Positions 32,128 through 40,246 of a stretch of DNA of 64,000 nucleotides are shown one piece after another (the first letter of the stretch is position 1; each line of letters opens with the position of its first letter). Where the stretch lies: contig NZ_CP047166.1 of assembly GCF_016806125.1 (NCBI RefSeq), positions 3,658,001 to 3,722,000 on the forward strand, written 5' to 3'. The translations under genes and the position numbers were made by a program. Source of the stretch: Ponticoccus alexandrii (GTDB lineage: Bacteria; Pseudomonadota; Alphaproteobacteria; Rhodobacterales; Rhodobacteraceae). The notes under the pieces were generated by a model. It was not told the origin of the DNA and did not search any database. It saw only the letters and a list, made by a program, of their open reading frames with translations.

Positions 32128-32328
32128 ATGATGATCACGCTCATTGCCTTTTCCATCCTGGCCGGCTCCGCCCTTGTGGTGGTGGGCAGCCTGCGCATGG
32201 TCACCAAAGACACGCTGTCGGTGGTGACCGGCTGCACCGCCCGCGCCCGCGCCTCGGGAACGCTTCACAGAAGGCTGGCCTTCGTCGCCCTCTGGCTTCT
32301 GATCTTCAGCCTCAGCTACACGGTATGA
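32128..32328 (+). CDS. Small two-helix membrane protein
   Basis: A 66-residue protein with two hydrophobic helices (about 2-22 and 48-65) joined by a basic, threonine-rich loop. I know no family for it. Its stop codon overlaps the start of the next gene (ATGA), and it is the first gene of the XpaC/TelA operon, so it is probably a real membrane component. An AT-rich stretch near 32060-32085 could hold the operon promoter. Function unknown. Confidence 0.68.
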   Translation: MMITLIAFSILAGSALVVVGSLRMVTKDTLSVVTGCTARARASGTLHRRLAFVALWLLIFSLSYTV

Positions 32329-33194
32329 CGACGATGACCCGCCAGGACCACAGCCCCCCCACCGGCATGGAGGGCGTCGACACCTTCCAGTTCGCCGACC
32401 TGCGGCCCCTCGATTCCGGCCTGAGCATCCTGTTTCTGGCCACCCTGCCGATGCTGCTCTGGGTCTTCACGGGGTCGTTTGCCGGGATCGCCACGAGCCT
32501 CGCGATGCTCTGGTTTCTGTCGCTGGCCCTGCGGCTGATCGCGGCGGGGCAGCGCATCCACCGGGATTACGACCTTGCCTCCGATGCCCGCCGCCCGCGC
32601 CTGCCACGCAAGATCCTCGGCTCGGCCCTGCTGGGCCTCGTGGTGCTTGTCCTTGCCGGGCACCGATTCGATGCCTTGCTTCTGCCACTTGCCTGCGGGG
32701 CACTGGCGACCGCGCTCAGCCTGATCGCCTTCGGCACGGACCCGCTGACCGACAAGGTCAGCCCCGGCGCCGAGCTGTCGCGGGACGACACCGAGGCACG
32801 TCAGGCGCAGGCTCTCGACGACCGCCTGCTCGCCGTCTCGGACCTGCTTGACCCGCTGAACGATGCCGACCCGCTGCGCCGCGCAGAGGCCCTGCGCCTG
32901 TCAGTGGCCCGGCAGTTGGCCGCCGCACCCGGGGACGAGCGCCGCTTCGACCGGGTTCTGGCGCTGTCCGAGCGGATCGCCGCGCTGCTCGAGACCGAGG
33001 CCCCGCGCCTTCTGGCCGCGCAGGGCGGCCCCGGCTACAGCTTTGCCCGCCGCCGTTTTGTCGCGAAGGTCGAAACGCTCTCCGAAACCTTCGACAGCCG
33101 CGCCCTGAAGCTGACCGGCCCCTCCCGCACCGATGCCTTCGACGAAGAAGCGCGGCGCCTGCTGGACCGGATGCCCCGCGAATCCGCCGCCTGA
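32325..33194 (+). CDS. XpaC-like membrane protein (paralogue 1)
   Basis: A 289-residue protein with four predicted membrane helices (about 34-55, 57-77, 95-115 and 117-137) and a C-terminal helical cytosolic domain of about 140 residues. It shares two marks with the XpaC family protein encoded 180 bp downstream: GMEGVDTFQ (here at the N-terminus) and a GTDPL / GIDPL motif after the last helix. XpaC proteins were named for an indolyl-phosphate hydrolysis phenotype, and no catalytic site is known. It is co-translated with the 66-residue protein. Confidence 0.72.
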   Translation: MTTMTRQDHSPPTGMEGVDTFQFADLRPLDSGLSILFLATLPMLLWVFTGSFAGIATSLAMLWFLSLALRLIAAGQRIHRDYDLASDARRPRLPRKILGSALLGLVVLVLAGHRFDALLLPLACGALATALSLIAFGTDPLTDKVSPGAELSRDDTEARQAQALDDRLLAVSDLLDPLNDADPLRRAEALRLSVARQLAAAPGDERRFDRVLALSERIAALLETEAPRLLAAQGGPGYSFARRRFVAKVETLSETFDSRALKLTGPSRTDAFDEEARRLLDRMPRESAA

Positions 33195-33279
33195 GCGAAA
33201 GCCCGCCTGCTTCCCCCTAGCAAGCGCAGCATTTTGCCCTTAAGTTCCAACCGGAAGGGTAAAGGGACGGGGGCCCGTC

Positions 33280-33369
33280 ATGTCCGCAAACGCCTTGCAG
33301 AAGGTCTGTTACGTCCTCTTGATCGTGCTTCTGTTCGGAGTGACGACCGGCTGGCTCGGGGGGCTCTGA
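33280..33369 (+). CDS. 29-residue single-pass membrane microprotein
   Basis: ATG at 33280 opens a 29-codon frame ending in TGA at 33367-33369, three bases before the next ATG. The peptide is MSANALQKVC followed by a run of hydrophobic residues (YVLLIVLLFGVTTGWLGGL). A purine-rich AAAGGGACGGGGG precedes the start at a suitable distance. Its position inside an operon of membrane proteins, tight junction with the XpaC gene and clear single helix support a real small protein. It resembles small regulatory subunits of membrane complexes, but I know no family. Confidence 0.6.
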   Translation: MSANALQKVCYVLLIVLLFGVTTGWLGGL

Positions 33370-33372
33370 GCC

Positions 33373-38242: not shown

Positions 38243-38341
38243 TGAGCGCCTTCGGCGCTCATTCACTCCCGGGGGCTGCGCCCCCGGACCCCCGTTTCGG
38301 GGCTCTGCCCCGAGCCCCGAGGTATTTTGAAACCGGAGAAG
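38243..38341 (+). repeat. Dispersed element, copy 7 (type II with multiple hairpins)
   Basis: Three hairpins in a row, GAGCGCC/GGCGCTC (38244-38260), CCGGGGGC/GCCCCCGG (38269-38287) and a GGGGCTCTGCCCC stem near 38300-38312, lead into GAGGTATTTTG and AAACCGGAGAAG. It follows the SPFH gene in the same direction and could end its transcript. Confidence 0.65.
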
Positions 38342-38451
38342 CTGGGGAGCACGGCCTTGGCGACGTGGGATGCGGTGTAGCAGCCGGGACAGCGCCGAGG
38401 GCCGGGAGCGGGGCGGATACGCTCTCGAGGATACCAGGAGGGGGGATTGGA

Positions 38452-38982
38452 TCAGCGGGCCAGCAGACTGAGGAGGTCCGGGCCGCGACAGGCGTCGCGC
38501 GGGAAGTCGAAGTCGGGCGCCGGCGCAGCCGGGAAGGGTCGATAAGGATCAACTTGGCTTTCGGTGATCAGCGCACCGTTCAGGCAGATGTCCTGCGCCG
38601 CGTTGCCGATGTTGAATCCGAAGCCGCCGGCACCGCAGTCGGAGCCGAAGCCGTCCATGTTCCAGGCCTGCGGCATGTCGATGCCTTCTCCCTCGACCAC
38701 GAAGGCTGGGCGGGCTGGGTCGAAGGTGAGTTTCCACGAGGTTTCCTCGGTCAGGTCGCCCAGCGACCAGCGACCGATCGCTGCGCCGTCCTTCAGCCCT
38801 TCGATCACGAAGCAGGTCAGTTCCTCCTCGCGCACGAGATCTTCGGTGCCGAAGGCCGCATCGTAGGACAGCCCGCCGCGCACCGCATAGCCCCCTTCAC
38901 CCTGCCAGAGGAAGCTATAGGCCAGTTCGGCGGCCTGCGCCGGGGCGGCGAGGCAAAGGGCGAGGATCGTGGCGCGGATCAT
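38452..38982 (-). CDS. Secreted protein of unknown function
   Basis: A 176-residue protein with a clear signal peptide cleaved after AQA (residue 17). The mature protein is acidic and rich in Gly and aromatic residues, with four cysteines (LTCFV, GSDCGAG, DICLN and DACRG) that may form two disulfides. No domain is recognisable. It is encoded opposite to the SPFH and zinc-ribbon genes that flank it, so it is not in their operon, but its conserved position could still link it to the envelope module. Confidence 0.62.
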   Translation of the reverse strand: MIRATILALCLAAPAQAAELAYSFLWQGEGGYAVRGGLSYDAAFGTEDLVREEELTCFVIEGLKDGAAIGRWSLGDLTEETSWKLTFDPARPAFVVEGEGIDMPQAWNMDGFGSDCGAGGFGFNIGNAAQDICLNGALITESQVDPYRPFPAAPAPDFDFPRDACRGPDLLSLLAR

Positions 38983-39124
38983 GCGGGCGCTCCTGTTGCT
39001 GCGCTGCGGAAGATAGCGATGCGGGCGCGGGTCTCAAGTGGGGAAAACCCGCCGCCTTCCGTGCCTTGACCCGCGCGGGCAGAGCGGGAACACTCGCGCC
39101 CGAACGATCCGAGGACCCTGCCGC

Positions 39125-40246
39125 ATGACCACCCCGCCCCCAGCCCCCACGGCGACGGCCCCCAAGGAAGAGCACCGCTTTCCCTGCGACCAATGCGGGT
39201 CGGACCTGCGTTTCGATCCGGATGTGGGCAAGCTGGTCTGCGACCATTGCGGCAACACCGAGGAGATGGTGCAGGCCGGCCCTTGGGACGGGGGCGTCAA
39301 GGAGTTGGATTTCCGCGCGGCGGTCGAGAACCTGCTGCCCCTTCAGGAGATGGAAGAGACCCGCGTCGCCCAGTGCCCCAACTGCGGCGCGCAGGTCGAG
39401 TTCGATCCGGACGTCCATGCCTCGGAATGTCCCTTCTGCGCCACGCCCGTGGTCACCGACACCGGCACGCATCGGCACATCAAGCCGCGTGGTCTTTTGC
39501 CCTTTGCCATGGACGAGGCGCAGGCGCGCGAGGCCATGGTGGACTGGCTCGGCAAGCTCTGGTTCGCGCCCAACGGCGTGCAGGAATACGCCCGCAAGGG
39601 CCGCAAGCTGACCGGCATCTACGTGCCCTACTGGACCTTCGACGCCGACACGACCTCGGACTACCGGGGGGAACGCGGCACGATCTACTACGAGACCCGC
39701 ACGGTGATGCGCGACGGCAAGCCCACGCAGCAGCGCGTGCAGAAGATCCGCTGGCGGGGCGTCTCGGGGCGGGTGACACGCTTCTTCGACGATGTGCTGG
39801 TGCTGGCCTCCAAGGCCCTGCCCAAGCGCTACACCGATGCGCTGGAGCCGTGGGACCTGTCGGAGATGGAGCCCTACCGCCCCGAGTTCCTCGCCGGATT
39901 CCGGGCCGAGGGGTATCAGGTCGATCTGGATGAGGGCTTTCAGGAGGCGCGGGTGAAGATGGACCGCGTCATCCAGCGCGACGTGAAGTTCGACATCGGC
40001 GGTGACCGCCAGCGCATCCACCATGTCGAGACCGAGTTGCGGGATGTCACCTTCAAGCACGTCCTGCTGCCGGTCTGGATGGCCGCCTACAAGTACCGCG
40101 ACAAGAGCTATCGTTTCGTCGTCAACGGGCGGACGGGTCGCGTGCAGGGGGAGCGGCCATGGTCTGCGGTGAAGATCACCATCGCGGTGATCCTCGGGCT
40201 GATCGTGGCGGGCGGTCTTGGCTACCTGATCGCGCAGAACCAGTGA
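39125..40246 (+). CDS. Tail-anchored double zinc-ribbon protein (YdjG/TFIIB-type)
   Basis: A 373-residue protein with two zinc ribbons at the N-terminus: Cys21, Cys24, Cys39, Cys42 and Cys84, Cys87, Cys102, Cys105. A large beta-rich central region follows (YVPYWTFDADTTSDYRGERG), then a single C-terminal membrane helix (about 350-370) and a short tail. These features match the family often annotated as TFIIB-type or PriA-like zinc fingers that is encoded next to SPFH proteins. It is not a transcription factor or helicase. It probably recruits the SPFH protein to the inner membrane. Confidence 0.83.
   Translation: MTTPPPAPTATAPKEEHRFPCDQCGSDLRFDPDVGKLVCDHCGNTEEMVQAGPWDGGVKELDFRAAVENLLPLQEMEETRVAQCPNCGAQVEFDPDVHASECPFCATPVVTDTGTHRHIKPRGLLPFAMDEAQAREAMVDWLGKLWFAPNGVQEYARKGRKLTGIYVPYWTFDADTTSDYRGERGTIYYETRTVMRDGKPTQQRVQKIRWRGVSGRVTRFFDDVLVLASKALPKRYTDALEPWDLSEMEPYRPEFLAGFRAEGYQVDLDEGFQEARVKMDRVIQRDVKFDIGGDRQRIHHVETELRDVTFKHVLLPVWMAAYKYRDKSYRFVVNGRTGRVQGERPWSAVKITIAVILGLIVAGGLGYLIAQNQ

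Follow-up and report, generated by a model that had tools for sequence, protein, structure and literature searches.

In a 64,000-nucleotide stretch of the genome of the alphaproteobacterium Ponticoccus alexandrii (contig NZ_CP047166.1, positions 3,658,001 to 3,722,000; hereafter the window), we have analyzed a locus at positions 32128 to 40246 that joins XpaC and TelA to an SPFH protein and a double zinc-ribbon protein. XpaC-TelA and SPFH-zinc ribbon are already known as separate pairs, each linked to envelope stress, but no paper describing the joined locus was found in the literature searched, which lacked most subscription journals. As judged from the sequences, the ancestral unit is a row of six genes encoding a microprotein, XpaC, TelA, a DUF2927 lipoprotein, the SPFH protein and the zinc-ribbon protein. 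We tentatively propose that the locus may provide an inner-membrane scaffold for envelope maintenance, assembled from the two older functional pairs. Its features in the window are as follows.

32128..32328, plus strand: S66, a 66-residue two-helix membrane protein, paralogue of the long microprotein form
32325..33194, plus strand: X2, a 289-residue XpaC paralogue by phmmer, duplicate of XpaC
33211..33247, plus strand: promoter-like element, recognized by pattern conservation and pointing towards the microprotein
33280..33369, plus strand: S29, the 29-residue single-helix microprotein, with its stop 3 nt ahead of the XpaC start
33373..34269, plus strand: XpaC (PF10112, 3.9e-24), N-terminal half hydrophobic, C-terminal half helical
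34297..35493, plus strand: TelA (PF05816, 3.3e-107), a predicted long cytosolic coiled coil
35496..36497, plus strand: DUF2927 lipoprotein (PF11150, 3.5e-60) of matrixin-like predicted fold
37089..38213, plus strand: SPFH-GYF protein (PF13421, Band_7_1, 2.1e-97; C-terminal GYF_2, 2.1e-19)
38452-38982, minus strand: gene for a 176-residue secreted protein, between the SPFH and zinc-ribbon genes and unrelated to the module
39125..40246, plus strand: tail-anchored double zinc-ribbon protein with two CxxC...CxxC ribbons and a C-terminal hydrophobic helix

The association of these genes goes far beyond chance: 40 genus representatives and 80 named loci show the same order. In a sample of 150 genomes from 74 genera of the order Rhodobacterales, TelA was present in 148, XpaC in 147, the SPFH protein (over the cut-off) and the zinc-ribbon protein in 146 each, and DUF2927 in 149. 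XpaC lies ahead of TelA in 38 of the 40 genus representatives and DUF2927 behind it in 38, while the SPFH gene lies downstream in all 40 and the zinc-ribbon gene further downstream in 37. The named loci, nearly all of them Rhodobacteraceae by title, repeat this order with the microprotein S29 and XpaC in 79, SPFH in 78 and the zinc-ribbon protein in 72, the last two counted within the fetched stretch. Gene content, order, conservation and co-inheritance were established directly. An earlier note on this DNA had made its proposal of a unit depend on a gene order kept beyond close relatives; it is kept order-wide, and the core is found in four further alphaproteobacterial families. The block lies beside rluB in 33 of 41 genus representatives and 66 of the named loci, a position that fits vertical inheritance. 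The record L092 (JAFKDC010000001.1), whose title gives the name of an actinobacterium (Enemella evansiae TN21-6), contains the whole Roseobacter-type block with a TelA 99% identical to that of the window and looks mislabelled or contaminated.

Losses within the order divide the unit into three separable parts, namely microprotein-XpaC-TelA, SPFH-zinc ribbon, and DUF2927. The module is lost from genomes G011, G085 and G106, with a divergent TelA relic staying in G085, and G081 has lost only the SPFH and zinc-ribbon genes and keeps XpaC-TelA-DUF2927; these two genes have been lost jointly in all four cases. In one genus, g7, XpaC is encoded elsewhere in the genome. Outside the order, XpaC, TelA, SPFH and zinc ribbon stand in a row without DUF2927 in four alphaproteobacterial families (L032, L033, L034 and L036). 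TelA is rare in the rest of the class: of 187 genomes sampled from families other than that of the window, 13 show a strong TelA match and six a strong match to this SPFH family. All six SPFH-bearing genomes are also TelA-positive (p about 3e-8), and four of them are those with the row of genes just named. In L203, from one non-alphaproteobacterial genome, a divergent SPFH-GYF protein comes after XpaC-TelA. In trees with FastTree support of 0.7-1.0, the TelA-linked SPFH proteins form one clade, with that of L203 standing apart, and the linked TelA proteins likewise cluster, a few unlinked or truncated ones among them. A single joining event is the simplest reading.

The codon pattern of the microprotein indicates a frame under purifying selection that evolves as a protein: pN/pS, the ratio of non-synonymous to synonymous changes, is 0.48 in frame and 1.0 and 1.78 in the shifted frames, as pairwise counts over related and hence non-independent sequences. 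With this, coding by the microprotein gene counts among the directly established results. An initial dN/dS of 0.76, weak and obtained with length variants unhandled, was superseded by this comparison. The distance from the microprotein stop to the XpaC start is mostly no more than about 5 nt, which suggests translational coupling of the two. In many genomes the microprotein has about 67 residues, with an additional N-terminal helix, like S66. The C-terminal helix of S66 aligns with that of the microprotein (hhalign probability 90.6%, E 1.3e-6), and a plain phmmer search with S66 ranks mostly microprotein frames next behind its orthologues. X2 has no Pfam match, but phmmer reaches XpaC proteins from it down to about 1e-22, and it always accompanies S66. 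From this evidence S66 and X2 are a tandem copy of the microprotein and XpaC in a few lineages, with S66 orthologues only in L067, L078, L083 and 7 of the 80 named loci. All eight genes named in the earlier note are thus real and lie at about the positions it gave, but the conserved unit comprises six, the first two being this lineage-specific duplicate.

The element that lies 5' of the microprotein has the pattern TTCCCCCTAGCAA-N14/15-CCTAAGTT, in the window with an N15 spacer and a second box reading C(C/T)TAAGTT(T/C). Its conservation was observed directly in 38 of the named loci and 8 of the 40 genus representatives. The same named loci (2.3 Mb, both strands) held no further match elsewhere, and since the window's own genome has a single good match, no regulon is seen with this pattern. 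TAGCAA and TAAGTT are spaced by 17 bp, which would suit a -35/-10 pair; boxes resembling those of RpoE, RpoH or CtrA were not enriched 5' of the microprotein. In the window the element follows the duplicate pair and precedes the microprotein; the ancestral unit thus probably starts its own transcript, with this promoter-like element dedicated to it.

XpaC and TelA are both over their Pfam cut-offs (TelA with 359 bits against 30), and the XpaC gene lies 27 bp 5' of telA. The same succession forms an operon in Listeria (lmo1966-1967) and Lactococcus (llmg_1115-1116), where it is induced by membrane or wall stress (PMC12791056, PMC3139573); XpaC-TelA is thus a known pair of the envelope-stress response. 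What sets the present pair apart from these is the co-encoded microprotein and the ordered run of DUF2927, SPFH and zinc ribbon attached to it. For a link to Ter-type loci, also suggested before, the locus gives no support: no match to TerB, TerC, TerD or any other Ter family exists among its ten genes, and the TelA family is all it has in common with Ter-dependent stress loci, in which TerB/C/D occur with the TelA-like YceH. The predicted TelA model (pLDDT, the predicted local distance difference test score, of 71) is all-helical with very long helices at residues 128-207 and 213-325. Note that two contigs filed as viral in IMG/VR (L172 and L173; about 333 and 342 kb) also carry XpaC-TelA pairs, with about 36% identity to the window's TelA; these are either very large phages with such a pair or cellular contigs.

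The likeness of the SPFH and zinc-ribbon genes to the pspA-ydjGHI operon of Bacillus subtilis, proposed earlier for YdjG and YdjI, finds support in their domain architecture and in the pairing of the two families across phyla (PMC8581546, PMC11237479). In both systems a Band_7_1 SPFH protein adjoins a double zinc-ribbon membrane protein, and this succession has a very wide distribution that takes in Vibrio, Comamonas, Burkholderia and Tsukamurella. The Bacillus SPFH protein is soluble and needs a membrane partner, and YdjI, YdjG and YdjH together place PspA at the membrane (PMC8581546; gene context in PMC11237479); the SPFH protein studied here likewise has no evident transmembrane helix, but it ends in a GYF domain rather than a zinc ribbon. 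While pspA-ydjGHI contains PspA and the TPM-domain protein YdjH, the present locus has neither, with no TPM-domain match among its ten genes, and has TelA and XpaC in the neighbouring position. PspA was considered as a hidden partner and is rejected for this locus: only 49 of the 150 genomes encode it, in no case close to the module, and in the window's own genome it lies about 3.2 Mb away in contig coordinates.

The minus-strand gene that separates SPFH and zinc ribbon in the window had been overlooked in the earlier gene run. It is rare, with 2 occurrences in the 41 genus representatives and 4 in the named loci, as counted in single-pass searches; an iterated profile caught antisense frames of the zinc-ribbon gene and was dropped. 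G+C-rich inverted repeats resembling a repetitive intergenic element flank the SPFH gene at 36820-36870 (gggggtccgggggcaaagccccc) and 38255-38330 (cgggggctgcgcccccggacccccg). A second relative of the zinc-ribbon protein, with 30% identity, is encoded elsewhere in the window's own genome (G000:C1:2146960-2147949). A Novosphingobium plasmid (L179) carries, behind its SPFH gene, two DUF4178/zinc-ribbon genes along with genes for polyamine synthesis, an arrangement resembling the polyamine-linked operons of PMC11237479.

DUF2927 is predicted to be a lipoprotein of matrixin fold with its zinc histidines replaced. In its model (pLDDT 86.5), residues 107-307 align with MMP-7 in VIA-align (Z 11.4, 2.8 Å, 149 residues aligned), and all 50 matches listed are matrixins. 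With matrixins and other metzincins, such as MMP-7 and karilysin, it shares the predicted fold and an active-site helix with a GL turn at the corresponding position, but not the histidine zinc ligands. Where metzincins have the zinc-binding motif HExxHxxGxxH/D, DUF2927 reads EExxQxxGLxN(D), so that, with the residue correspondence taken from motif spacing, all three zinc histidines would be replaced. Cys23 of the lipobox, E263, E264, Q267 and D274 are invariant in 40 sequences, and E263, E264 and Q267 also in a set of 24. Searching Protein Data Bank sequences with TelA and DUF2927 gave no useful match, and the literature searched held no paper on DUF2927.

With due reserve, the best reading is a PspA-independent stress scaffold in which TelA and XpaC take the place of the Bacillus PspA and YdjH. 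PspA is infrequent and never near the locus, and the module is near-universal; the most economical model would make TelA/XpaC the coiled-coil membrane partner of the SPFH-zinc-ribbon pair. By analogy and gene neighborhood, membrane-embedded XpaC and the microprotein would anchor the coiled-coil TelA to the inner membrane on its cytosolic side. The SPFH-GYF protein, itself soluble, may form oligomeric patches, with the tail-anchored zinc-ribbon protein as its membrane tether in the way that YdjG/YdjH hold YdjI in Bacillus, and where the Bacillus system recruits PspA, TelA would serve as the coiled-coil partner of this platform. The DUF2927 lipoprotein would stand outside the inner membrane and, given a protease-like fold without a histidine zinc site, most likely bind a peptide or wall component rather than cut it. 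A more far-reaching version, in which TelA, XpaC and the microprotein make up a second, PspA-independent coiled-coil membrane-repair machine for SPFH-zinc-ribbon platforms, coupled to a periplasm-reading pseudo-metzincin lipoprotein, strikes us as a long shot.

Several observations weigh against the proposed scaffold. In G106, DUF2927 stands alone between rluB and pfkB (L050) with XpaC, TelA, SPFH and zinc ribbon gone, which suggests a separate role; it survives loss of the rest and so is perhaps not integral to any such complex. It also has paralogues in most genomes and is absent from the four loci outside the order. The TelA model matched only generic helical bundles, uninformative about its relatives, and nothing specific to PspA or ESCRT-III folds; at its modest pLDDT, Foldseek and VIA-align yielded no hit under E 1e-3 and none above Z 12. 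Outside Alphaproteobacteria the two pairs normally lie apart and each occurs without the other; at phylum level TelA accompanies SPFH in 5 of 21 genomes from other families than the window's, and in none of these do the two genes adjoin. In the window itself, SPFH and zinc ribbon are set off by a gap of about 590 bp behind DUF2927, compared with 10-100 bp in most relatives, and by the extra gene before the zinc ribbon.

It is conceivable, if rather unlikely, that the locus holds two independent envelope pairs that share a site and regulatory input but form no single complex, in a neighborhood fixed once and then inherited. This would agree with the separation of XpaC-TelA from SPFH-zinc ribbon in most Proteobacteria, Actinomycetota and Bacillota, with the loss of the latter from G081 in spite of the retained XpaC-TelA-DUF2927, and with the displaced XpaC of genus g7. 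Nevertheless, TelA and SPFH co-occur strongly in the class sample, and the tight order is held through the whole order, even after XpaC has relocated. We regard as improbable a constitutive housekeeping scaffold for membrane or cell-wall biogenesis: 146-148 of 150 genomes have the module, at a conserved rluB-adjacent site, which is unusual for an optional stress system, and loss of YdjG/H affects wall synthesis in Bacillus (PMC8581546), but the complete losses from G011, G085 (save for its TelA relic) and G106 mark the module as dispensable, and the homologous pairs of Bacillota are stress-induced. A dedicated operon for resistance to tellurite as a toxic oxyanion, as annotation has it, is very improbable in spite of the family names TelA and KlaA, the plasmid-borne TelA homologues so annotated and the 2-fold higher tellurite sensitivity of Listeria telA mutants, as nisin shows the stronger effect there (4-fold; PMC12791056), genes for Ter proteins, reduction or transport are absent from the locus, and near-universal chromosomal presence ill suits a toxicant met by few marine bacteria.

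For the Rhodobacterales, the locus adds a conserved microprotein that annotation would probably overlook, and with DUF2927 a protein family that is predicted to combine a protease fold with replaced metal ligands. Across the whole order it ties the widespread, stress-induced TelA/XpaC to an SPFH-zinc-ribbon pair whose role in membrane recruitment has been worked out, and it thus offers a concrete, testable hypothesis on the function of TelA.

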